From assembly GCA_002205965.3 (NCBI GenBank), contig NADL03000015.1:186001-250000 (forward strand): a stretch of DNA of 64,000 nt. The letters run 5' to 3'. A program made the translations under genes and the position numbers. The notes under the pieces are model-generated. The model had not been told where the DNA came from and ran no database searches. It was given only the letters and a program-made list of their open reading frames with translations. Every line of letters starts with the position of its first letter. The first letter of the stretch is position 1. This stretch comes from Kappaphycus alvarezii. Lineage: Eukaryota; Rhodophyta; Florideophyceae; Gigartinales; Solieriaceae. This document shows, in pieces, positions 8,007 through 64,000 of this stretch.

Positions 8007-8831
8007 ATGTCCCTCTGGACCACCCTCCTTTCCCTCCTTGAGTCTCTTCTGTCCCCTCTCTTCGCCTGGCGTCATGATCGGATCGAGGAACCATCCGTCC
8101 TCACTTCAAAACGACGCGAATTAATAGATACTATTCCTCGCGGGTCTCATGTCCTTGAAATCGGTGCAGGCACTGGCGGTACATTGACCTCAGGAGCATA
8201 CGAGGGTTCAGCGGGTCGATTTGCACGTTTGGTGTTATCTGAACCGGATAGTAGCATGAGGGCCCGTTTGGAGTCAAAATTGCAAGGAAGGGCCTCCGGA
8301 GTATCGGCTGGAGAGTTAAAAGTCATCGATGCTGGTCTACCGAGTTTGCCATTTGTCGATGGAGAATTTGATGTTGTCGTCGTATTTTTGGTTTTGAGTC
8401 ACGTGGATGGCAGGAGGCAGGGTATTGCCGAGATTGCAAGGGTCTTAAAGATAGGGGGGAAGATGCTTATTATGGATCATGGTGTCCATAAACATCACCA
8501 TGGTCATACAGATCCATATGGCCAAGACGATGGTCAGGATCATGACTGCGCGTACCGTGAAAATGCCCCTGTGCAGCGGAGGCGGGAGCCCTATTTTATG
8601 GAATGGCTACGAAATTGGAGGCACCGGCGTGATCGCGAAGACCTAGATTCTGATCTGTTAGTGGACGAAATAAGGGCAGAACAGAGGCTAGAGGAAGTAT
8701 TTACTAGAAAAGCCCCTGTTGAAAGGTATTTCTTTAAGGAAGTTTGTACGGTTGTTTCGAACGGAAGCAAGAACCAGATGGATGACTTCCATGGCTTAGC
8801 GCGCCTCATCAGGAAGAGAGAATTAGTTTGA
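8007..8831 (+). CDS. METTL7-like class I SAM-dependent methyltransferase
   Basis: This 274-residue single-exon gene has an N-terminal hydrophobic stretch (about residues 2-20, LLSLLESLLSPLFAW) that resembles the membrane or lipid-droplet anchor of METTL7 proteins. The Rossmann methyltransferase core follows. It has motif I VLEIGAGTGG (49-58), an acidic ribose-binding SEPD (78-81), motif IV FDVVVVFLVLSHV (121-133) and RVLKIGGKMLIMDH (145-158). METTL7 relatives methylate small thiols or other alkyl substrates at the ER; substrate here is inferred only. Odd points are a histidine-rich insertion after the core (HGVHKHHHGH, 158-167) followed by an acidic DDGQDHD run, and a charged C-terminal half that I do not recognise. 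Its stop at 8829-8831 lies inside the coding end of the opposing MAPEG gene. The ATG at 8007 is the first in frame and fits the anchor. Confidence 0.75.
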   Translation: MSLWTTLLSLLESLLSPLFAWRHDRIEEPSVLTSKRRELIDTIPRGSHVLEIGAGTGGTLTSGAYEGSAGRFARLVLSEPDSSMRARLESKLQGRASGVSAGELKVIDAGLPSLPFVDGEFDVVVVFLVLSHVDGRRQGIAEIARVLKIGGKMLIMDHGVHKHHHGHTDPYGQDDGQDHDCAYRENAPVQRRREPYFMEWLRNWRHRRDREDLDSDLLVDEIRAEQRLEEVFTRKAPVERYFFKEVCTVVSNGSKNQMDDFHGLARLIRKRELV

Positions 8832-15159: not shown

Positions 15160-18100
15160 TCAGCAATGAACTATTCGAATATGCATTTCATGTGGATTAG
15201 ACAGCTTTTCGAGTTTAATATTGTAGAGGATTTCATGGGATTTCATGGGAACTTGACTTGCGGAAGGTACTGGAAATAAAATAAATACAGAGAAATGAAA
15301 CGAAATTAGGTTGAAATAGGTCTACAACATCTTTCAGTATAATTTATGACCATAGATATTTGTGGTGGTAAATCTTTACGGGTTGCACAATGTTGTACCG
15401 AAGCGTGCCTAGGTTATGCGTAAATTAACTACGGATGCTTGCGGCGGGTAGAAACTTGTCGCACCTGCATTATTTGGAGACTAAACGCAAAATTTTGGCG
15501 ATTCTTGTCTTTTCATTCAAATTGTTTCCTTCACATCCCATATTTATCATTGCGTAGCTATCACCTTGAAAATTCAAATTGTTTCCTTCACATCCCATAG
15601 TTATCATTCCGTAGCTATCAGATTGAAAAATTTTATCGTTCCCGGGAGGTTCTTGCAGGAAACGAGCTAGTCATTTCATGTTTGAGCTCAGTACCTATGT
15701 ACTTTGGGCTATAAAATGACTGAAGTATACTACAATTGCACTTTAATTATCTATCGATAGTAACTTAATGGCACCCTGGGCCGATTTTGAAATAATGAAA
15801 AATAAAAATAGAAGCAAAAAATTTAGCCAAATATTCTCATTCTTTGACTGTTATAGAGCCTCTGTTTCTTTTTCTCTTCATTATTACCAAACTAAATTAA
15901 ATGGAACTATTTTCCAATGCTTCTCCCGAAATTTTCCAAAGTACTTGAAACATAAATAGTAACCGATGACACAGCGTTTTGGTGACTCGTCATTCCTAAA
16001 TAATCTTTCCATCAAGAAAAGTATTTTCTCCTGCTTCATAAATCAGTTTAATGCTTTTTATTTTTCGTTTAACTTCAGTGTGTAGTTCTGGAAGGATTCG
16101 ACCTACTCCTGAGAACGTTTTTTGAAGCGCACATTGTGCTACGTCGAAGCAGGTATTTTTAAGATACTTCCCGCTCGTTTCCAAAAAACCTTTATGAACA
16201 TACTTTCTAACAAGTCATTTAATTTTTGTTACTTCATAAGCACCAAAATTTTTCCTCTCAACATAAGCAGTCGCATAAAGTTTCCGAGTAATCTTCTCGT
16301 GATAATATAAGATACCCGTATCCGACCTTTTTGACGATATCTGTCAACCTTTTCTCACCCCATACTCCTCAAAGGCGTTCTTACTGTAGCATTGAATATG
16401 GTTCATTATGGAGTTCAATTATAGGTCAATTTTGTTGAAACTAATACAGTTTAGAGAACTTTTTGCTATATATGGTTCATTAAAACCTTAATAAATTCTA
16501 TGTTAAGTTACTTTTTCGACTTAAATCCAAACGTTAAGATTTTCTGTTCCTTTCACAGTAGCCCACAATTAGTTCCTAACTTCTTTAGTAATATACTCAG
16601 AGAAAAGTTTAGAATTTATCTGTCGTTGTCGTTGTGCTAAGGTACCAATATATCAATGATTATTATTTCCAATCTTTTAAACGGTGATTTAAAATATCAT
16701 CAAATTTTTACTAATAGTAGCTTTGACTACTCAGTGTATGTATCTTTTTTTAAAATAATTCTGTTGAGACGCACAATACTCATTAATTTCAACATGGAAT
16801 GAAATGATTTCCCTGTGTTCTTTTCATTGATTTAAGCCTTTGCTGTTTAGCAAATTGTGCAGAGGAGTTATTTTATCATAAAGTGATCGTAGAATTCATA
16901 AAATTGACCAAAGAATTTATCAACTACCAATATCATCCATTATGTCCCCTCTGTTATTTCGGATGTTACTAATAAGTGACACTAGGTAAAATGAAGAGGC
17001 TTCTATCGTGATAAAGCGCATCAATCCATCTTTCCGCTACGAAAATAATGTTTTAGATGCCCATTTGCACGTACGTGTTACTAGAGATGACTGTGATATA
17101 TCAGCTTTGGAATTAAACTGAATAGGAGGGTTTTTAATTGGGGTATTTACTGTGCAATCAATCGCATATTTAAGCCCCAACAGCTTTTATATGTGTAATA
17201 CCGCGTGACACTAATCAATTACGCTCAAAAATAAAGAGTTTATCGTCAGCATCATAACAAATCGCGCAACGTCTGTTTTCTTCTTCGGATCCACAAATAA
17301 TCTGTAGGATCCTTTTATCCTACGTTATTTTTCATTGTATGGTTTTAGATTAAGAACTGAAAGTATTACGAGACTTCTACGCCGTATAAAATATGTGATC
17401 ATCAGCGTTCAAGTGATCTTCTTTCCTTAATATAGCAAGGATAGCCTATATACTTCATGGTCACACTGGAAAATATTTTTCCAGTGAAAAATATTCTCAG
17501 CAAGATTTTTAGCGGTTTTAGTGTGCCAATCAGGGAGTTTCCTGTAATCTGAATTCTTATAAATACTATATGAATTTGTTATTGACAAGGACAATTCTGC
17601 AGAATATTTTTCCGTTATCCGAAAAACCTTCATTACATTGCAATCATTATCCTTCATTCTCACGAGAGCACTGGAATTCAAGTCAAGAAACGTAAAATAT
17701 TTTCCGCTGGACCCATAACCTGATTGTGTATACAGTTTTTTCGTATATTTTGAGACTTTCCGCTATGTTCACACCTGTTGTTTCCCGAAATTGCATGAAA
17801 GTCACGTAAAATCCGAAGCAATTCTTATTTTTCACGAGTTATTTAATAACTGGGGGCAGTTTCGGGTTGTGGGACTCTGGCATCATTCTTACTCAAAAGA
17901 TCGGTCTATTTTCATGTTAAGATGCTCCTTGATTATTTTTGTTCCCAAAAATTTTTCAGCAGCTCATCTTCAGTGAATTGGAAAGAAGTATCTATCGTTG
18001 AAAAAGTTATATTTATATTATTATAGTGCATTAACTTGGCTTGTTTTCATTCATTTCTGTATTTTGACTAAAGCTCTTTTGGTTTCAGTATTGTGCAACA

Positions 18101-18480
18101 TATGATTCGCGATTTATTCTTTAGTGAGTTCTGCTGTACCGAAAAGAGCTTTAGCAAATTTTTACCTAATTTGAATGCAATGTTGATTGCATCCCTTTGG
18201 GGTAAAAGTAAAAATAAGTAAATTATATATTTTCAACTTACAAATCAATTTGATTCAATAATAGGGGCATCCACAACACAAAAGTATCAGTATTCTGCTT
18301 AGTTAAGACTACTGTTATCGATGACTCGTTCATTTATTGTAGCCCAACGAATTCTATTCGGTTCAAATTTGCACAAATGAATGTTTCTAGAAAAACTCTG
18401 AAAGTACATAAAGGCGAGGCATCCCAACTTGATAGTGCCCACCCGCCTTCGATTGTACCAGGGCGGCGAGGGACTGATCA
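15160..18480. other. AT-rich block, left part: no gene seen
   Basis: About 3.3 kb of strongly AT-rich sequence contains only short chance ORFs. It has a 57-bp tandem duplication (15515-15628) and a near-palindrome GGAAAATATTTTTCC (about 17467-17481). A 17-bp word TAGTTCTGGAAGGATTC (16083-16099) recurs exactly at 24843-24859. Base composition matches 22.66-28.9 kb, so the two are probably one block split by the YR retroelement. Confidence 0.6.
15515..15628. repeat. 57-bp direct tandem duplication
   Basis: Two head-to-tail copies (15515-15571, 15572-15628) beginning ATTCAAATTGTTTCCTTCAC differ at only a few positions. This is a simple recent duplication in the AT-rich block. Confidence 0.8.
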
Positions 18481-18648
18481 CACCAATGCCGGCCCGCCTT
18501 TCTGGAGGCCAGTCCTACGAAGCAGATACTGCGACGTGTCCAGTTGGCCACCTGTCCAGTTGTCTCCACTTTTGACTTTCTCTCCAAAACTCGAAAGAGA
18601 GAGGCATGGAAGTAGGACGACAAGGTCTACGGGCGGGAGGGCGGGAAA

Positions 18649-18671
18649 GAGAGAGGCATGGGTTGGCATCC
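18649..18671 (+). repeat. Left copy of the second shared end block
   Basis: GAGAGAGGCATGGGTTGGCA plus three bases matches GAGAGAAGCATGGGTTGGTA at 22601 onward. On the right the block is contiguous with the GTCTACACTAGAC block. Here it is separated from it by about 138 bp containing a GGCGGCGGCC run. A partial third copy lies at about 18580-18611. Confidence 0.6.
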
Positions 18672-18809
18672 AACGCGGCGGCGGCCACCGCCGCCCTTAT
18701 GTACCCGCATCACTGTAATCACAGAATTACAGTATCAGTACCAGGGCAATCGTACGCGTCGACAGTACGGCCCCAACCCGCCACGCTCGCTATCATTCTT
18801 ATCGTTTCA

Positions 18810-18838
18810 TCTGTATAAACGGTAAGTCTACACTAGAC
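18810..18838 (+). repeat. Left direct repeat of the YR element, palindromic core
   Basis: This repeat (TCTGTATAAACGG, then TAAG, then GTCTACACTAGAC) is 29 bases long and differs from 22624-22652 at one position. It is in the same orientation. The core GTCTA-CAC-TAGAC is a perfect 5-bp inverted repeat around 3 bases, the architecture expected of a tyrosine-recombinase crossover site. Confidence 0.75.
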
Positions 18839-19774
18839 GAAACACCAAAGCGTAGTCACGGAGCGTAGCGACGCCTCAATTGGTTGAGGTGGAAACGGGG
18901 AAGAAGGATGGAGAGATCCCGACCCGAATATCCAGACTGAAGCTGCGGTAGGCACAATAGTCCTGTCAAAGTACACATTAGCCATATCAGAACTACGAGG
19001 CCCCCAGCCAAACCGGGCAAGCCGAACTTCCAAAGGAATCCCGAGAAAAACTTGTTCGGTGTGTGCCCCGATTCGAAGGCTGTGGGAAGAAAATGATCCT
19101 CCCACAGGAGCGGAAATTCCGATAGCGCTCAAGCATCGACGAAGGGCGTCAGTCAAGCCACCCGGTGACCACCGTGTCGGTTCGCCAGCCAATGCGAAGA
19201 AGCGCACATGGTGGGGACGCATGTTTTTCCACTTCGTCCAGAGTCGCAAAGGAGAGGGCTCGGTGGTGGAGGTGAAGCGCACCAACGGCACACGGCTTGC
19301 AGTCCTGCCTTTCACAACGTGAAGCCTACAGGTGAACTCGTGTGAATCAAGAACGCAATCCTCTGAACGGACGGAACAAACAGAGCTCTCTCGAAGCCCA
19401 TTAAAGCAAAAGGCAAAGAGACACATGGCAGCGTCACGAACCCCCAAAGGGTCATCGACGCGCATGCCATAATCACAGATTTGCTTCACATGTTGGGCAC
19501 TTAACCCGCATCGAACCGTAGGTTGGGGCTGGACTTGTTCCTCCCACCGTTGATAAGCGCGCAATAGATGGTACAGGAAGGGGAAACTGGGAACCTCCTT
19601 TCCAAGTACGGCGAGTTGTCTTTGGCGAACAGCGGACGGATATTGGGGGAGTGAAGAGTGTCCAACAGTCCAGCGACCGGCCTCGCGCTCTTCGGTGAGC
19701 CAGCCTCTGAAGGCCACGAAGTGTGCCTCCGTAACAGGAAGCGGATCTCTGTTGTCTGCTGTGCAGAACTCCAA
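18833..19774 (-). other. Tyrosine recombinase part of the DIRS/PAT-like element
   Basis: A 313-codon open frame looks whole. The residues expected of a tyrosine recombinase are visible: Arg in NGLRESS (about 128), Lys in VVKGR (155), His and Arg in HSLRIGAHT (231, 234), and the Tyr of ANVYFD (268). In the family this enzyme joins a circular DNA copy to the genome without a target duplication. The reading frame ends within a few bases of the left direct repeat. Confidence 0.8.
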
Positions 19775-22623
19775 ATATGTTCGCTATTGGGAGTCCCTTG
19801 TGCGACCTGTACGAGCACTCCGCCCGTAGTCAGCAAGGAGACGGACTGATCGGCGCGTTGACGAAGCTTGAGGGCGCCTTCCTTCCACCCCGTCGCCGGC
19901 CAATTGTGCCAGGCTCACATGTTGATCTCGAGGAGTAGAAGACGCCAGTCGGGATTCAGAGTTCGCTGCGCGCTCGAGATCTCTTGGGGTAGATGATTTA
20001 ACTCGTCCACCTTGTTCGCCATGCGGATCGCTGTCCAATACAAAGGTTGCCGCAGCCAATTCGGAACAAGCAACATCGCTGGGCATCCCGAGTGGCGGAG
20101 TTTGATCAGCGTCGGCGTGATCAAGTCCACTGGTTGGCATAGCAATCGAACTTGGTCCTTGTTTCAAACTGCGTCCAGCTTAGCCCAGGCCTGTCGGCGA
20201 AGGAATACAGGGTGTTCGCCTAGAGGGCGGAACGGAAAGGAGTCCACTGGAGCTTCCATACCATCTAAGACGGAAGGCCGCCGCCGCCGGATCTGGAGGT
20301 CGCCGCGAGGGAACCGTCGCGATAAGGCATCGGCGAACTTTTGGCCACCGAGGGGAGCCATTCTGAGCGGATGTGAAGATTGTGAGCATCCAGCACGCGC
20401 TTGAGTCGGCGCAATTATGTCATTATGACGCGGCTGGACGAAACAAAGGCATTGTTTATACCCACTGCCTGGTTGTCCACATGAAGCAAAAGTTCCCGTT
20501 TGTTCAGTTTGCAGACATCTCGACCAAGGCGACTCTGTGTAGCATTCGAATCGCTTTCAGTTCGCGAAAGGTGATCGACCTGCACGGTCTCTCCAATCCA
20601 TATGCCTTGATCCTTGAACTGGCCGTCCTTGCCCGCGTGCATGTTTTCCAGGTTGAGGGTGCCTCCATATCCCACATCGGCTGCGTCGGAATGTATCGCC
20701 GCTTGAACAGGCATGAGATGTATTACGCGTCCGTCGAGGTCCTTTCCGGCCATCCGCTTCCACCAGGCGAGATCCCGTCCCTTGGATCAGCTTGCACCTG
20801 CCCGGCTGTCCCGTTGACTGTTGGCCCTACGTCCAGTAAAGGGAACGGGTGTAGAACCGCGCCCAAGGTAAAGCCAAAGACAAAGACACAATACCCACAA
20901 AAGTGGGTAACAGACCGAGCGCAGACCCACGCCGCCCCATCCGGGCTTGTCGCAGAATCTTTGTGCCAAACTCCTGACTTTGGCAACCTTGTGTGGTGCG
21001 ACCTTGAATCGCATACACCTGGTATCTACTTCGACACCTAGATGAGTGAGCACTTGCCGTCCTTCCCATTCTCCTTTCTTCGGGTTCCGAGTCAGGCCTA
21101 AGCGGCGAAGTAGCCTTTCGATGACAGGCCGTGCCCGTTCGCAATGGGCTTTGCTCGCAACTGTTCCTGCCGATGAAGGGCAATCAAGAAATCGTCCAGG
21201 TACGCGAGGACTCGGTACCCAAATATTCGCAATTCCTGCACAAACACCGCCATTAGTCGAGTGAACCAAAGCGTGAACGTCCCCAACCAAAGGGCAGGGC
21301 AACACATTGATAAAACCTCCCTGCATAGTGGAAAATGAACCAGTCCCTCATAGACGGTGCCAGGCGGAGATGGCGATAACCTTTGCGGATGTCCAAAGAA
21401 AGTAAATGGTCTCCTTGTTGAATGCAGGTAGCGAACTCGAAAGGCTTTCCATACGCAAACTTCCTTTGCGCCAGTGCTTGGATTGCCTGCTGAGGTTGAA
21501 ATAAACCTTCCTTCTTCCCTCTGGTCCTTCTTGCCAAACTGTAAAAGAAGAAGAGATTACGGCCCATTTGTTTCGCCCGCTCGGCGTGCGCAGACATATC
21601 TCGCGTATATGCCTTCTTGCATCCAGCTTCCAGATCCCCTTTGCGAAGGCCAAATCCTCGCTGACTGCGGTATTGGAGGCAAAACCACTCCTTCCCCTTG
21701 CCGAAAGGGGTCGCAGGCTGCTCGAAGATACCGAACTTGATAGCCCGGCATAGATAATCCGAGCAGAATTGGCGCCAGCTCTCGACGCGGATTGTGTCCC
21801 ACGCCAAAGCGACGCCCCATGTTCCATGTGATCAGTGCCCATCGGCGGAGCCTCCCTTATTTCCACCAGTCTTATTCTTCGTGTTGCTGGTCTTCAAGGT
21901 AGCTACCGCCTTCATGAGCTGGGTCATCATGTTGAGTCGAGCTTCTCCATCGGCTCGTCCATATTATCCGCCGCAGGCATGTCCATCTGACGTTCCAATC
22001 CTGGAACTATCATTTTGGCCGTTACCGGATCTTCTGCCGCCATTTTATAAATTCAGTTCTGAGCCCGAGTACCCGAAGTCCATAGCGGACGGAGAGACAC
22101 GCCCAGACGTCAAATCTCTCAGCCTTCCCAAAGTTCTTCTGCTGCTCATGTCCAATGCCTCATGTCGCAATTGAATAGAAGCTTCGTGGAAGGAAAGCCA
22201 ATATCCTGTCGCATTGACATAATTCGCCTCATGCATGGCGATCGGCTTCACTGGATTACCTTTCCAGCGCAGTGCAAATAGGCCACTGGCGATTCTCGTA
22301 GAAGCCACCATTAAATGCTGAAACCGTACCGGGCTCGGATAACGTGATAGCCCAAATTCGCGGTTCATCACGACAACGTTGTGCAATCTCAGCGTAAGCC
22401 GTCAACCACTCCGGATAGATCCCCGAAGAGGCAAAGGACTCCCCTTTTGCAATCTTCTTAGATTTTTCAATAAGCTCCTCAACCGAGGGCAAACTTTTGT
22501 CGAACGAGGTATTCATCACGGGTATTGCAAAATTTTGCTTAGTCGAGTTCGTTGGACTAATATGAAGGTGCCTACCGCCAAAGTCTGGGGACTCTCCAAA
22601 GAGAGAAGCATGGGTTGGTATCC

Positions 22624-22652
22624 TCTGTATAAAAGGTAAGTCTACACTAGAC
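22624..22652 (+). repeat. Right direct repeat of the YR element, palindromic core
   Basis: This matches 18810-18838 with one difference and has the same GTCTACACTAGAC core (22640-22652). It marks the 5' end of the element (minus strand), directly before AT-rich flank. Confidence 0.75.
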
Positions 22653-25600
22653 AAAAATCTTGGCTAGTTTTTGTGTAATATTCAGATATATTACAAAATT
22701 ACAAAAATAAAAATAATCTCCTTGCCGATCAAGTAAAAAGCCGAGGTATTGACGATGGGACAAAGCCACCGAAAGGCTGAAGAGGTGGCGAAAAAAGGAG
22801 ATAGAAGGTAGATCAATTTTTTTTGCTATCTACTGTTCGTTGAATGAGTGCATAACGTTGCGTGTCTTGCTTTAGTGCAATTCCGTATTCAATAAGAGTA
22901 TTTTTAATACAATTTGTACCCTGTTACGGTAAAAGTAAAGTGTTGATTAAAACTCTGTAATTTTTTCCTTCCGAGAGGAGACCAGACCAACAAGCTGGAA
23001 ATGAACACGAGGAAGAGTAATAACAACTATCATTAGCTGAGCGAGTGAACTCAGAACTCAAGTAATGCTAGACCCAACTACAGGCTGACGGCTTCCAACT
23101 GATAACGCAACCATTTTCTGCTGATTGGTCTGATATCCATGATTCTGAAATATCATTGAGAGAGAGCACAGGCACTATAGTAGTATAGATGTGACTGCAC
23201 TTCTTACGGGATAGAAGTTGGAACAGAAAGATGTTCATTATCACCTACGAGAAGAAATAGAAGTTAATATTTTGCACTGTCCTTAAATGGAACTTTCAAC
23301 AAAGAATTCAATTAACTACGAAGAATATGTTCCTATCAATTTCAAGTTAAAAAATCCTCCTATTTTCTCAAAGATACCAATTGTCCTAATTTTTAAAGTC
23401 ATACAGGACATGCATGCTTTAATCCTCTACCTAAATTGTGTTACATACGACCCTTACAGAATGATAAAGTAGAGAGTATCATTCTAAAGTTTTATTTTTT
23501 CTATTTTGTTACATATTTTACAGGCTACGTTAATATTCTAAGAAAATTCAAAGTTTATAGCAATAAAATCATTTTTTGCCAGAGAATAAAGGGCTGAAGT
23601 TGTCACATGGTTGCTTTTTTTGGTACTACAAACATATCATAGAGAATCTTTAGCCATTTATTTAGTTAGGATTGATAAATGATGGTATTTATAGCGGACA
23701 AAATAGTTGGATACCGATATCTGTATTTCTATATTTTACTAAGTAAAACAATCGTTTCGTAAAAAGCTTTAAGAATTTAAATACTTTTACATACGCGTAG
23801 AGGATAATAAAGCGTAGAAAAACACTGTAAATAAGGGGTTTAAAGCTTCACTTCACCTTTAAAGTGGTTCCACAATACAAATAGAAATTTAGATTCTGTA
23901 CCCGGACAATTATACAATTGACAAACTTTAACAGTAAGTTCGCAGAGAGATCGCCCCTGGTGGTTTCACAAGTGAGAATCAGACGTTTTTTCATTCTTAT
24001 GATTTTGAACGACTGTCAGGCCAAAATATTTCATCTTTTGCCTTTTTGTACCTTGTTAGTAGGCAAAAATACGTTATCGGTATTTATAATTCCCTTTTAA
24101 TCTGAATAAGATTAGCCTTCTAAAATAAAAAATTATATAATAATCCTTGTTTCCGTCCTCCGCTGTTCAAATTGACATAATGTTTACCGTAAACATTTTT
24201 ATCTCTGAAGTAAAATATTCAGCTAATGTATCAATTACCCCTATTATGACTATAGAGTGTTAATTGAACAGAATGTAACTATTTTATCACACTATGATTT
24301 TTTGTATGGTTAAAGAATAAGAAGGTATATATTCAAAAAAGTTGAAGTATTTTGTTAATTACATTCAATTTTACTCTTTCCAGGATCCTGTATTCTATTG
24401 GCCCATCGTAATCAAACTAAAACAAATAAGAGCTGTATTCTAATGAAAAAAATAACTCTTGCTCAAGCTCCTAAATATGCCTTCAACTGTAAACCTCGAT
24501 CATAACAAACTTCAGAAGCATTACTACGCCACTAGGAATCCGAAAAAATTTTCCCACCTAGATATTTTACCCTTTAGTTTCAATTCATCACATGTTGTCC
24601 ACCTATTTTCTGCTGGTGGATGTTTCCACGGACGTGGCGGAGCGTGGAAAATGTGGAGCACTAAATTAAATTAAATTAAGTTCCTCATCAAAGTAGCCTT
24701 GAGCCGCGTGCATATGGTTTTACTCTGACATGTCTGTGTTTTACTATAGAGAACTTCTCTACATTGTATGAAAATTAATATAAAATTATAAATTCGCGCT
24801 CAAGATATATGCCTTTCATAAATTTTATCAATATTTAATGAATAGTTCTGGAAGGATTCAGTTAACTGGCCTCATAAAATTTTTTGTGAGTACTTTGGCC
24901 TTGGTCCGCTTCATCAATTGCTTGATGTTAGTTTAATATATGATACTGCAGCATGTTTCGAAAGAATATTTTTCCAATATGGCCAATAAATGGTAAACAT
25001 TACCAAAAACTTATCCTCAATTGTGGAAAATACGGTAGTTCGCCTGCAGTGATCCTGTTTCTCCCTATTAGATCAAATGCCTATTAATACGATTTATAAA
25101 TGCCATAATGGGGATCCAGTACATATATTAAGGTAGGATTATCATTATCTATTCAAAACTGTAAGACTCTGAATTACTTCCAGGTTCTCGAGAACAAAGA
25201 TAAGAAATGTTTGAAATGATGAACGTATGATTTCCTGACCGGTTTTGTGTCTATTTTTTTTGTCTGTATACTTGGTTAAGATGATTTTTATCTGATCTGG
25301 TGTCTTGCATATAACCATATTACGTATTTTTCTACCAAGTTTCTATATTTTGTATCCGGTAAATTTCTTTTGCATAATTCAATGATAGATACCTTTGAAA
25401 CGCGGATTACCTTTCAGGTGTGTTAAAAAACTTTTAGAATATATTTGCAAAAACGTAAAGCACACTCTACAGTCGCAAAAAAACATCTTGCTTTCACGGT
25501 GAAAATCTTCAAATTAAGCACAAAAATCTGAATTTTTACTTTTTTACTTTTTTCCAGTTTGCGGTTGGTTGTTTTCTTTTATGTAACAGGTCAAGTCAGC

Positions 25601-37242: not shown

Positions 37243-38694
37243 TCAATCAACTCTGGCTCCACAGCTAATTCCACCCTCCGCAGTGCCTTGGGCCCGTTTC
37301 CATTTCTCACCACCAAACCCCTCCACCAACCGCTCCCAACAGTTCTCGGCAACCATTCTGTCCGCTATCGCCTCGCCTTGTTCCCCTCTAACCATACCCT
37401 TCTCCCACCCCAAAGTCTCATACTCTTTAATCACATCGGCAAACGTCGCCTTGCCCTTAATCCTTCTGCGCGCTATCAATAACGCAAGCTCCACCTCGGA
37501 TACACTGGCCACCATCGTAGACAATGTGTCTGCTGGCGAAAGATGCATCTCCAGCGTTTGCAACGCAAAACTTAACCTCTCTTCAATCCCCATGACAGCG
37601 CCTTTCTTCCCCGAGCCCTCCACCTCCACAATTTCGGCCTCAAACGCACTGGTCATAGCGGCATCAACCGCTCGGAGAATAGGCTCAATGACTCTATTTC
37701 CAAACATATATCTATTGATAACGGCCTTACCCGCTTCCGCATCAATCAGCATCCGCACGACACTGCGATAGTCGTCCATTCCTCTGTCATACTCAGAGCG
37801 ATCACTGCCGCCATGTCCATTCCCCCTCATTTCATCGCGGTGTCCACCAACACGCTTCCCGTCCATACCGCGCGTACGCGCGGTGCTGCGACGGCGCTTG
37901 GTATTTCGGGTCGAAGAGGAGTTGGCTGCGGCTGGAGTATCCGAGCGTTGTCGCTTGGCGACTTGAGGGTCGCCATTTTGCAGAGGATGATGCATGGATT
38001 CGGTTTCGGGGGCGAGTGAATGTTGGATGGCGGCGGTGAGAAATTGGCGTACCTGGTTGTCATCCTTCGGTAACGGGATGACTATTTCGCGGGCTGCGAA
38101 CCTACTTTTAACACGCTTCTCGAGACGACTTGTGGTATCGATCTTGTTTGTCATTGCGACGCAGGCGGCGCGCAGGGTGTGTTGTTGGAGGTAGTTTAAA
38201 ATGCCGTAGAGAAGGCTTTGAGAGGATGAATCGCATGCAAAAGCGTGAAAGGCGTCTAGTACGAAGAGAAGGGGTTTGTTATGGTTGGCTAGAGTGCGTA
38301 AATGATCGTTAATTATAGCGAGACATTCGGCTTGATGTGCGGGCGGGTCAGTTGCGGAGAAGTGAGATGCGATGGTGCGCCAGGCGGTGGAAGGCGAGGA
38401 GTGAAGCAGACCATGGAGGGTTACAATTGTTGGTTGGGCTGAATCGGGCAACGTGGCGAGGGCACGGGATAGAATTAGGGTTTTGCCGCTGGATTGGGGT
38501 CCCACCAGGAGAATTGAGAGGGGGGGAGACTGTGCCGAGAGAGGGCGGAGGAGGAGGTTGGAAAGACGGGTGATGACGGGTTCAAGGGTTGGAAGAGGGG
38601 TGAAGGTTGGGGAAAATAGGTGACGTCGGAAGGATGAGTGACAAGTTTGGACGGCGGCGGAGTAGGAATGGGAATGGGTTGCGTTGGATGGCAT
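37243..38694 (-). CDS. ORC4: Origin recognition complex subunit 4 (ORC4-like)
   Basis: This 483-residue, single-exon protein starts at the ATG at 38694. The AAA+ part has Walker A GPQSSGKT (65-72), GLLHSSPSTAWRTIASHF (95-112, matching the LNGLLQINDKIALKEI region of human ORC4), Walker B LLFVLDAF (142-149), LLYGILNYLQ (161-170), a sensor-like VAMTNKID (179-186) and the ORC4 hallmark LEKRVKSRF (191-199). The C-terminal winged-helix part includes SEVELALLIARRRI and FADVIKEYETLGW. ORC4 is part of the complex that binds origins and loads the MCM helicase. Odd points are that the acidic pair of Walker B (DE in human) reads DA, and that a basic, low-complexity linker of roughly 75 residues (about 240-315, with KRQR, KRRR and GHRDEMRGNGHGG) separates the two domains. 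The gene is divergent to the one starting at 39584. Confidence 0.85.
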   Translation of the reverse strand: MPSNATHSHSYSAAVQTCHSSFRRHLFSPTFTPLPTLEPVITRLSNLLLRPLSAQSPPLSILLVGPQSSGKTLILSRALATLPDSAQPTIVTLHGLLHSSPSTAWRTIASHFSATDPPAHQAECLAIINDHLRTLANHNKPLLFVLDAFHAFACDSSSQSLLYGILNYLQQHTLRAACVAMTNKIDTTSRLEKRVKSRFAAREIVIPLPKDDNQVRQFLTAAIQHSLAPETESMHHPLQNGDPQVAKRQRSDTPAAANSSSTRNTKRRRSTARTRGMDGKRVGGHRDEMRGNGHGGSDRSEYDRGMDDYRSVVRMLIDAEAGKAVINRYMFGNRVIEPILRAVDAAMTSAFEAEIVEVEGSGKKGAVMGIEERLSFALQTLEMHLSPADTLSTMVASVSEVELALLIARRRIKGKATFADVIKEYETLGWEKGMVRGEQGEAIADRMVAENCWERLVEGFGGEKWKRAQGTAEGGISCGARVD

Positions 38695-59303: not shown

Positions 59304-60290
59304 TCAGTTGATTTGACTACTATCACTTCCCATCATCTCATCGAGCGTCAGCTTCAGCTGCCTACAGCACCGGCGGGCCTCATCGCGAATCTCGCTCTGA
59401 AGGGAACAGAGTACCCTGTACAGGGGGGCGGAAAAAATGCATCGCACTGCAGCATACCTCCTGACGATTGCAATTTCACGAAAAGTCTCTTTGCAGGGAG
59501 GCAACTGCGAAGATTCAATCGCTTCTTCCTCATCGCCACTATCGCCGTCAATGTGCTCGTCTACCATTTGATCAAATTGCGTGTCGAGTGAAACAACTTG
59601 AGTGCGGTTCTCTCCCCTGGCATATTCAGGAGCGCGGCTCACAATATTTGCGAATGAACCGGAATTAAAAGCGTCCATTGCGTTCTGTGCATGTTTCTCA
59701 TCGGCACGTATAACTTGGCATCCGTATTTGTTTCGTAAGATTCCAGTTCTTTGTGCTTGCAATAATTGCTTATGATGGCGGCCTCTAACTCCCTCCACTG
59801 CATCTTAACGCTTTCATAGCAGCAGGATGCCCACCTCAGTATATTTCACGAACTTTTTCATCAAGCAGGTCAAGCGCACGGTCCATCTGAAATGCGCGAT
59901 AGCAAAGGTTCATGGACGGGATGATTACAGCGTCCAATGGATGGATTTTGGATGTAGTGGTCGGAGGTATAAATTACACCTTAACATTGGACAACTCTGG
60001 AATGTTGGGAACACTGCCATTGGCGCTACAGCTGTTGATGAGCAGGATTGCTTTGCTGTAGCTGAAATTTGTACACTGAACCGGTGCAGCCAGTTAAAGA
60101 ACAAATCACACGCCATCCATGCATTCTTATTATGTTGATAATCAAGTCCAAGTTCTCGACCGCCCTTCTTCTTGAATGCACGAGGACTGAAAAAGCAAAC
60201 AAGAATGGATATCCGCAGCAACCAAAGGTGTAAAACGAGCAAAAGAACTCAGAATGCAAAATAAACAGAGAGGCTAACGGTATACGTTCG
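59304..60290 (-). pseudogene. Pogo/Tigger-type transposase remnant (DDE_1)
   Basis: Minus-strand reading gives AFKKKGGRELGLDYQHN and KNAWMACDLFFNWLHRF (60180-60080), AILLINSCSANGSVPNIPEL (about 60055), FIPPTTTSKIHPLDAVIIPS (about 59970) and NLCYRAFQMD. These match, box by box, the DDE_1 domain of pogo-like elements, where KAWMTS..F..WL, LLLDNC.AH and FLPPNTTS..QPLD.GII are usual. The second catalytic Asp (LLLDNC) is Asn here (LLINSC), there is an in-frame stop just before FIPP, and the frame shifts before the 165-codon C-terminal frame 59798-59304. No inverted ends were found. The gene is dead. Confidence 0.7.
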
Positions 60291-60299
60291 GTCAGGTTA

Positions 60300-63200
60300 T
60301 GGCATAAGACGCTAAAACACCTACCAACACTTCTTCGACGACCCCGAGCACTCGACACGACCCCATCCAACTACAGGCCGACAAATCCCACCCGGATTTG
60401 CCTGTCTCAACACTCAGAAGATCATACCAACCACAGCAAGAAGCAGACGGGGCGCTCGTCGAGAAGCACAAGTCCCATTCACCGAGCCCACCCAAGAGTT
60501 ACTACGCCTCACCAAGCTTACAGCACAGGACACCCAACCTCCATATCACACTCCGAGCACCTATCTCACAATGGAGAACATAACTACACCCAAAATCGCA
60601 AGACTGGACCGCGCAAACTATGCGCCATGGCTCATCTATGTCCGCGGTGCCGTCGCGTCTACTCAAGCGAGGGATCACATCTCACAAGACGTCCACCCTC
60701 CCAAGGACCCCAACTCAGCACCTTCAATGACAACGGGATGTCTTGCTGAGCGCTCTTATAGGGTCCATCTCGGCCGAAATTGCCAACCTAGTCATCCGCC
60801 CCGACACCTACCCTACACCATGTCAGCTCATCCAGTCGGTCCAATCATACCTCAACACCATACACACCGGCCACCACAAGTAACTCAAGTCCCTCGCTGA
60901 GCACATAAGGTTAACAGAAGAGATGTCCATAAACAAATATGCCGCCAGCATGAATCGGTCCATGTCGAGGCGATTACCGCCAAATATACAGACATTAACG
61001 ACGCAGCTACCACTATGGACTTCATGACCGCTGGACTTCGCTACAACCCCAACACGACACATATCGGAATGCATATGCTCACCAACGAACACTTCGAATC
61101 GAAGGACTTCATACACAAATGCAATGAACTCAGCATGTCACGACACCCACACATGCGGGGTCCAGCAGCCAACATCTTCCGCCCCCCAACAACACACAAA
61201 CGCTACTTGGTTGAACTACCCAAGCAGATCCATGGTATTCGCAAGCAACCACCCCAATCCGCGACGCTTCACACCATGCCAACATCACGTCGCCCTCGGT
61301 TTCCGCAAACCCCGCCACATCGATGAGAAGTGTCATGATCTCAACCACCCGCGCCACAAGCAGGGCAAATCGGCAGCCAAAGAAGTGATCATCAACTACA
61401 ATGATCTCGCTACGGAACTCCACAAACTGCTCCAACAATCCACCCCGAGAATTCACAGACGTCGAAGGCTCCAACATTCGTTCTTCCTTGATTCAGCCGC
61501 CCACTCTACTCTCTTCCACTCCTCCACACTCTCATGAAACCATTCGATTATCATCTTCCCACGACCACAGCCACTAATTCTCCCTCCTATTGTATCCACA
61601 CATGCCGCACATCGTTTGAGACGAATCTTAATAAGTACATCACAGTCCCCGCTCACGCGAACCAATCACTCTCCCACAACCTCCTCTCCGTCCGGCACTA
61701 GCCACATCCTATGGCTCTGTCGTCTTCTTCAAACATCAAGCACTTATCACACAAATCGACAAGTACGGAATTCGACTCTTTCTAACAGCACCGTGGAATG
61801 ATCAAGCTCAAGGATATGTAGTCACAGCTCAACGCAGCCCAAACCACGCATTTAACACGCGCCACAGTCGTCACAAGTAGTGGCAAACCTAGTACCACAT
61901 CATACAACCAACTCCGCCATCCTTCCTCCAACACCCAACACCAAACCCCCTCCTCCCCAACGACAAAAACGCCTCATATCCTCCCTTCCAAACCACCAGC
62001 ACGATCTACTCCCAAACATAACCAACGTAACTCCATCCACCAAAAACGCCCTCAGCCACAAATGGCATCTAATCCTTAACCAAACCCACCCAAGAGCCAT
62101 CCAACAATGGCAAAACAGGGCACTACCTAGATCCTACCCCCAGCCATGAAACGCACTCCCCCGAAATAACATGCTTTCCCTGCCGAAATTCGAAACGCAC
62201 ACCGGCCCCCCACAAACCGAACCGCAAGCACTATGCAGTCGGTAACTACATAAGCTCCGACACATGCGGCCCGAAAACCCGGAGTCTAAACACAAAAATA
62301 AGCATTTCCTCACGTTCATATATGCCGAAAGCCGCTTTCTCGCGTGTACTTTCTGAAAACCCGAGATCAGGTTGGGTAATACACCCACGTCCACATGCCA
62401 TAATCTACATCAACCTCAGCATCCCACCTACACTATCAGGGTGGACAACGCAAAAGAATTCACCTCAACGGATATCTGCAAACTGTACAAGCATCAGGGA
62501 ACAAACTCAAACCCAGAACCCCTTACTAGCCGCAGGAAAACAGCCGCCCGGAACTAATCAACCTAACGCTCCTCAATGCAACCAGAGCAGCACTTGTCAC
62601 CGCCGAACTACCACCTGCATTCTGAGAAGACGCACCCGCCGACGCTACATACAAATACAACTTGATGTAACACTACACCACAAACCAGACAACCTCAACA
62701 ATTGGCAAGCCGCCACATTCCAACTCCACAAACTATTCATCTTCGGAGAATATGGACACATCCCCACCAAAAACCAAAAAAAGGACCTTGCGCGACACTC
62801 GTCCGCTACATGTGCCCAATAGACGACACCATCATTCGTGTTTGCCACCCAGATTAGGACACATAAATGCAAGCCCGGGCAGTCGACTTCCGCCAGTGTG
62901 ATCTCCTACAAGACCTGTCCCGAAAAACGTCCTCCGCACTTCAGATAACGCCACAACGTCTTCCCACCCCACCTTAAACAACATGTAAAGCTCCCTAATA
63001 ACGCAAAGCGTCACTCTGGGCCGAAGCCTATGACAAAGAGCTGGCAGCCCTCGAACGCGAACACACATTTAATTGTAATCACAACCACAAAGTCACCAAA
63101 TCGGCAAAATCATCCAATTGAAAATGACGTACAGGTACAACACGACCTATCCCTGAAATAGAACGCAAAACCCGCTGCTCCGTCCGGGGCGACAGGATGC

Positions 63201-64000
63201 GACCATACCTGGATTAAGACCCCCATCAAACGTCCCTCTTCATCGCAGAACAAACCACAATCCGCATGCTCCTTAATATCGCCGCCCATCAGGACTGGCA
63301 CATTGGCCATTTCGACATCCGGCTGCCTAACTACACGAACCATACAACCATGACAAACCAGTTTTTGCCAAAGAACAACCTCGATTTGACGGTACCCTTT
63401 CTCACCTGGGACACACGGGCATACTCCTTCGAAACTTGTACGGCACAAAAACCGCGGCACAAAACTACTATAATGGCCTTGTCAGCCATTCACAGTAGCA
63501 TGGATACCAACCCAGCCGGGCAGATCCACGCATGTTCTGCAAACAAGCGAACGGCCACCCTATACTAGTAGCCATAAGTATAGACGTCTTCCTCCCCGCG
63601 CCCCCATACAAACAAAGTATAGACGACCTTTTTGCCGCAATCAAGCTCAAACACAACATCTCCAACCTAGCACATCCCACAACTTACCTTAAGTGGCACA
63701 TCAAAACAACACCAGCCGGCGACATCCACATTTCACAGCCACACGTAATACAGGGTCTCCTGCACAAGACGGGAATGACTAAATGCAGTTCTAGTCATCT
63801 CCCCGTACAAGAGAATACCAATTGGACGCAAGACCACCAAGCCCCCCCCCCCCCACTGTCGCAGAGCAATTACAAAGCATACTAGGGGACCTACGCTACC
63901 TCAACAACAGTTCCCACCCCGAAATACATTTCGCGGTCAACAAGGTGGCCGAGAGCATGCATCGACCCACACAAGACCATCGACAAATTCTAAAGTGCTT
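60300..64000 (+). mobile_element. Ty1/copia fossil, 5' part, runs off the window
   Basis: A gag-like start (ATG 60571: MENITTPKIARLDRANYAPW, a typical copia gag opening) is followed by further gag (about 60900-61320). A protease-like region lies near 61480 (SFFLDSAAHSTL), with integrase-type remnants (about 61800-62850) and reverse transcriptase (about 62990-63900, ending with HPTTYLKW and GDIHISQPHVIQGLL). The RT end matches the fragment at the left window edge. Domain order is complete as far as the window goes; many breaks make it a fossil. A leader lies at about 60300-60570, but LTR limits could not be set. A poly-C run is at 63841-63856. Confidence 0.75.

Follow-up and report, generated by a model that had tools for sequence, protein, structure and literature searches.

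The stretch analysed here (the window) comprises 64,000 nucleotides of Kappaphycus alvarezii, contig C15:186001-250000 of a 336-Mb genome in 884 contigs. A decayed, old copy of a tyrosine recombinase (YR) retrotransposon occupies its minus strand from 22652 to about 18327, with gag, reverse transcriptase (RT), RNase H and YR regions in that order (Table 1). This gene order had been proposed in a first-pass annotation of the window, and profile searches and motif reading agree with it. The YR open reading frame (ORF) matches PF00589 with an E-value of 4e-5, under the curated cut-off, and on reading retains the R, HSLR and Y residues. The RT match to PF00078 is weak in the window and strong in relatives (2e-15 in locus L004 and 5e-13 in locus L075), and RNase H is supported by its motifs together with a sub-threshold RVT_3 match in L075, the window piece itself having no Pfam match. 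Neither the window gag nor that of L075 matches a Pfam family. An Rfam search of window positions 17000-24000 gave no match, an IMG/VR search with one RT protein found no relatives, and a PDB sequence search gave no match for YR and weak ones for RT (best E 0.002 to a polyprotein, followed by retroviral RTs).

Table 1. Parts of the YR retrotransposon copy in the window.
Feature	Position	Strand	Basis or remark
Gene-5' terminus, R1 part b (GTCTAGTGTAGACTTACC...)	22624..22652	-	presumed recombinase-site half-arm
R1 part a	22598..22623	-	fused directly to b through deletion
gag region, two broken frames (22256-22654, 22045-22386)	22045..22654	-	relative ORF of 230 amino acids in L075
Reverse transcriptase region, broken frames	20787..21807	-	PF00078, E 0.039
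RNase H region	20415..20753	-	motif reading: SDAAD, VDNQ
Tyrosine recombinase ORF, 313 amino acids	18833..19774	-	GLRES, HSLRIG, YFDRT
Internal core GTTTC directly before R2	18839..18843	-	sole 'B1' remnant
R2, complete direct repeat b-X-a	18646..18838	-	copy alignment
X, 138-bp middle of R, deleted from window R1	18672..18809	-	copy alignment
T, unique 3' tail ending ...CTACAATAAATGAACG, true 3' end	18327..18645	-	copy alignment

Two blocks recur in the same orientation at both ends of the genes. The longer is a direct repeat of 39 bp with 90% identity (18804-18842 and 22618-22656; BLAST E 2e-8), which includes the 29-bp repeat noticed in the first pass; the other measures 26 bp with 92% identity (18646-18671 and 22598-22623; E 5e-4). 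The two adjoin at the gene-5' end (22598-22656) and are separated by 138 bp at 18646-18842, a spacing from which a PAT-type split-repeat element had been proposed. A search of the genome with the element returned at least 57 matches (40 of 123 candidates scored), in three groups: F1, the window copy with C18, C275, C767 and C586 (four copies, 93-94% identical); F2, with C466, C113, C616 and C620 (~76-77% identity; C466 and C113 have common flanks and are counted as one insertion); and F3, with C73, C509, C474, C585, C736, C479 and more (mostly 65-71%). On alignment to the window, the whole block 18645-18842 is also present at the gene-5' end in C275, C767, C586, C466/C113 and C616, so the window R1 carries a deletion. 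The shared blocks are the outer parts (b and a) of one contiguous direct repeat R of ~198 bp, and the elements are organised as R1 - genes - R2, followed by a unique tail, T. Both shared blocks are real, whereas the apparent split reflects a loss from R1 of this copy and not a design; a split in one old copy can be mere deletion.

Both the window copy and C18 lack the middle segment, X, in R1, but their breakpoints differ (TATACAGA^GGATACC and AAACAGATG^CGCGTTGG, respectively), which indicates two separate deletion events. A smaller R1 loss occurs in C620, where b lies 171 bp from a leader motif described below, compared with 218-224 bp in the other F2 copies. R1 and R2 are 90.5% and 93.9% identical in the two F1 copies in which both can be compared.

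Alignment of the genomic copies, which the first pass had suggested as a means of defining the ends, places R at both positions and T beyond R2. At 22652 the element begins with GTCTAGTG..., and its flanks there vary among insertions; the 3' end lies ~320 bp past R2 (...CTACAATAAATGAAC-G, near 18327), again with variable flanks, so that the limits first drawn, 18580..22652, fall short on the left. Across groups the 3' end is found about 320-570 bp beyond R2. Where the 3' end was located in F1 and F2, the window copy excepted, the bases that follow it are GTTTC (C18, C497, C616), GTTTA (C767), GTTTT (C586) or ATTTC (C466/C113); GTTTC also follows in C145, whose flanks are similar to those of C497. 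The T match of C275 ends at window position 18569 and its 3' end was not located. The plan recurs in F3, where T measures ~500-570 bp and has an AAAAC-type end followed by GTTTCA or GTTTTCA in the six copies read (C509, C736, C669, C809, C671 and C585; C479 stops short of that end). C736 and C585 match past the 3' end too and thus may be one insertion. Solo R-T units lie in F3 (C669, C809, C671) and F2 (C497), their 1.5 kb of upstream sequence revealing no element body, and C145 resembles such a unit with further insertions inside. Allowing one mismatch, the F1 terminus CTACAATAAATGAAC has 73+75 occurrences in the genome compared with 20+19 for the reversed control, most of them one-mismatch forms (TTACAATAAATGAAC, CTACAGTAAATGAAC) outside the element, for example in L042-L046.

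The plan is clearest in a young family, Y, a near-identical group with clean ends among the places matched by the window YR protein (at least 129 in the genome; 127 of 731 candidates scored). Here too the order is R1 - genes - R2 - T, which bears out the alternative offered in the first pass, that the lineage has its own end arrangement. In the Y copy L075 (C446), R1 and R2 are 4070 bp apart and enclose an open RT-RNase H frame of 651 amino acids, a gag of 230 and a YR that on reading contains a frameshift. The Y b arm is found at 41 places, 38 of which form 19 R pairs; the spacing is 4062-4085 bp in 18 of the 19 and 3930 bp in C814, because of an R1 deletion (TTTATGCGG^TCGGGCGCC). In the six copies compared, R1 and R2 are 100% identical in three and 99% in two, and the kept part in C814 matches at 42/43 positions. 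There are 18 occurrences of the exact 19-base terminus of the Y tail, of which 17 precede GTTTTC and one precedes GTTTCA, not counting C530, where the terminus is interrupted by an insertion. C667 and C668:4789, with a common 3' flank, are probably one insertion, and C503:165471-172418 holds a tandem R-body-R-body-R-T that reaches the contig end and includes one of the 19 pairs.

Published descriptions give Ngaro and VIPER elements the formula A1-ORFs-B1A2B2 and assign split pairs of this type to PAT elements as well (PMC4157794, PMC8547959, PMC6681497), the B repeat measuring 57-294 bp where the tables of PMC6681497 give both. A B pair of this kind was sought by scoring sequence before R2 against the 3' end, with simple base shuffles as the control here and in the leader-complementarity and inverted-arm tests below. 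In Y, neither the last 120 nt of T compared with the 116 nt preceding R2 (95/300 shuffles reach the score) nor the whole of T compared with the 600 nt preceding R2 (184/300) showed excess similarity, although R1 against R2 scores far above shuffles (0/50). The B1/B2 test was equally negative in F1 (283/300), F2 (207/300) and one of two F3 copies (174/300). What the pre-R2 sequence and the 3' end have in common in Y is GTTTTC at the junction alone; the 'B' repeat of PAT and Ngaro elements is reduced to a core of ~6 nt. In the window copy the YR ORF terminates at a TAG within the opening bases of R2, which means that any B1 at this place would need to be coding; in Y the stop lies, by reading, ~60-70 nt before R2, and such a constraint is therefore not general. 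The repeats are direct, as first annotated: the L075 element has no inverted repeat of 20 bp or more, and the short inverted pairs of the window copy do not link its termini; inverted terminal repeats were not found. The two ends of Y bear inverted arms of 8 bp, which would stand as ACACTTGA-11 nt-TCAAGTGT at the presumed circle junction (6/2000 shuffles reach the score).

The joined flanks of ten insertions were searched in the genome (40 of 1803 candidates scored). Among these candidates, empty sites were found for four: for C653 in C709, C552, C622 and C481; for C814 in C474; for C586:642k in C780 and C488 (match stops ~28 nt past the junction); and for the F1 copy in C586 in C37. No match spanned the junction for the other six. 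A T-rich core is present once in each empty site and once on either side of the element, being of TTTC or TTTTC type, with ATTTC in three of the C653 set and TTTGTC in C488. The 3' core is nearly constant and the 5' core variable. When Y copies were chosen regardless of core, two of six (C446, C717) had unequal cores, 5' TTTAC compared with 3' GTTTTC, and both cores were TTT(T)C in the other four (C586, C701, C653, C814). All four Y copies fetched because their R1 starts with T had a 5' core unequal to the 3' GTTTTC (TTTAT in C529, C530 and C467; TTGTT in C667), and across the Y pairs T replaces C at the start of 5/19 R1 and 0/19 R2. Unequal cores weigh against target-site duplication: they are expected if the target core remains at one junction and the circle core at the other, and not from duplication by a staggered cut. 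YR integration at a TTT-type, T-rich core is thus well supported.

At a probability of roughly 75%, the window element belongs, in decayed form, to a lineage of YR retrotransposons organised as R1 - gag - RT-RNase H - YR - R2 - T. Seen directly in the copies are the element ends, the arrangement of the repeats, the core-type insertion sites and the solo R-T forms; the genes and the identity of R1 with R2 point to reverse transcription. A transcript would start within R1, extend through the whole of T and be copied into DNA, and the lost 5' sequence of R1 would be refilled from R2, so that the pair stays identical. The ends would be joined at the short core GTTT(T)C, which the recombinase would then exchange with a TTT-type genomic site. 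The apparent split in the window would be the deletion of X from R1, perhaps through an erroneous template switch leading from the 5' end of the RNA to the b arm. A TATA-like stretch, TATATAAG, in R2 of C18 lies 29 and 35 nt before two F1 deletion borders, which may therefore mark the RNA 5' end. The chances are about even that the lineage dispenses with a B1A2 splint altogether, the circle junction being formed from one long repeat pair and the ~6-nt recombination core; the recombinase could join the two cores of a linear cDNA, or template transfer could be guided by R2 alone.

About 20-30 nt after R1 (window ~22562-22581, minus strand) stands a leader, CTGGCGGTAGGC-n-CTTTCA, present at all eight F1/F2 loci (L001-L008), at 4/7 F3 loci and at 5/6 young-family loci, where the region is cut off by the locus end in C586 and others. 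Its position and its TGG start resemble those of a primer-binding site, but a search for a tRNA-like partner gave 7+7 pattern hits compared with 16+16 for the control, none of them tRNA-shaped on reading, and a tRNA primer site was rejected. Splicing of X was rejected because the deletion borders are not GT-AG, and a 9-nt complementarity between the T end and the leader in the young family was matched by 74 of 100 shuffles.

Several observations weigh against this retrotransposon plan and its proposed cycle. The window copy has GAGTC at its 3' flank, without a GTTT core, and in the F1 copy in C586 the 3' core, GTTTTG, differs at one position from the empty site, GTTTCG. The inverted arms are not significant in F1 (468/2000 shuffles) or F3 (1945/2000). 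A shortened R is seen in R1 only (window, C18, C620 and C814), in 4/32 R1 (F1 5, F2 3, F3 5, Y 19) compared with 0/30 R2 (F1 4, F2 2, F3 5, Y 19), a difference that is suggestive and not significant (Fisher p 0.064), the Y share being taken from spacings with C667 and C668:4789 counted separately. No TATA-like box stands at the expected distance from the Y breakpoint, which leaves the two F1 copies as the basis of the link with transcription start, and the C814 deletion may stem from microhomology (TTATGCGG/TTATGTGG). The RT step, finally, is argued from the genes, which leaves room for DNA-level movement by the recombinase.

Such movement would have the recombinase cut R1-...-T circles out of chromosomes and insert them again, with little use of RT. 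In its favour, the core at each end could let excision yield a circle without a splint, and solo R-T forms and the tandem in C503 do occur. It nevertheless appears unlikely: the RT-RNase H frame of L075 is open, the near-identity of R1 and R2 indicates copying, and unequal crossing-over between R1 and R2 also accounts for the solos and the tandem. Still less probable is that the element conforms to the standard PAT or Ngaro type (A1-ORFs-B1A2-B2), with B repeats that have aged past recognition. Direct repeats, YR and gene order are compatible with that type, the R1/R2 divergence shows the window copy to be old, and the B1/B2 test gives a marginal result for the second F3 copy, L063 (27/300 shuffles), which also tells against the retrotransposon plan proposed here; the idea is largely refuted by the young family, where the A1/A2 equivalents are 99-100% identical and B similarity is at shuffle level, as it is in F1, F2 and the other F3 copy. 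A third reading, in which the shared blocks stem from a nested insertion or from unrelated repeats in the flanks, is barely conceivable: nothing beyond the odd spacing in the window favours it, and the full-length copies compared have the blocks at the same positions although their loci and flanks differ.

The element is interpreted here as a YR retrotransposon with a novel arrangement of its ends, and the results lend no support to placing it among PAT elements. As in Ngaro, gag, RT-RNase H (RNase H by motif and sub-threshold match) and YR all run in one direction, the repeats are direct and solo units exist; unlike in Ngaro and VIPER, B amounts to no more than a ~6-nt core and A2 gives way to a unique tail, so the split-repeat arrangement is absent. 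Like PAT, TOC and kangaroo elements, it has direct repeats of which one lies internally, close to the 3' end, but it lacks their B1/B2 pair and its YR is not inverted. No CCHC zinc finger, a Pat1 feature, was seen on reading the 230-amino-acid L075 gag, in keeping with its missing Pfam match. With DIRS1 the element shares YR, the absence of target-site duplication and a short T-rich junction, and differs in that no inverted terminal repeats or internal complementary region were found. It departs from long terminal repeat retrotransposons in carrying a YR ORF (no DDE search was run), in a 3' end beyond R2 and in the unequal end cores of two of six unselected young copies. The ~110 amino acids after RNase H match no Pfam family over the cut-off; a stretch there, CPPVDLI...IPDWPRQPW, resembles the DIRS-type domain and may be a methyltransferase remnant. 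The methyltransferase family PF05869 is found at eight places in the genome, none among the listed element or YR matches.

In the parts of the literature covered, SIRE corresponds to A2-B2 of VIPER (PMC6681497), solo repeat units are reported for Cafeteria Ngaro (PMC8547959) and 23 of 28 DIRS1-like elements start and finish with NTT (PMC3266345). A Trypanosoma theileri TATE copy is listed there with A1 and A2 and B as 'missing data', beside other irregular repeat orders (PMC6681497), so near cases may exist; no element combining a single long repeat pair with a tail was recognised in the material searched. A young and numerous family without a B pair suggests that the second pair is unnecessary, and makes the circle-closure model testable here.

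Phycobilisome-family ORFs on large contigs (C669:240962, C74:183737, C837:1087743) fit a red alga, the kind of host first suspected; C669 and C837 also bear copies of the YR element. Elsewhere in the window, two inverted repeat pairs, 10455-10742/11282-11572 (93%) and 10770-11012/13958-14198 (97%), suggest another repeat family. A 483-amino-acid ORF at 37243-38694 on the minus strand, with an AAA domain and a sub-threshold ORC4_C match, is probably origin recognition complex subunit 4, and a 274-amino-acid class I methyltransferase ORF lies at 8007-8831 on the plus strand (PF08241, E 7e-14). Positions 60000-64000 display strong strand skew, with GC skew to -0.44 and AT skew to 0.32.

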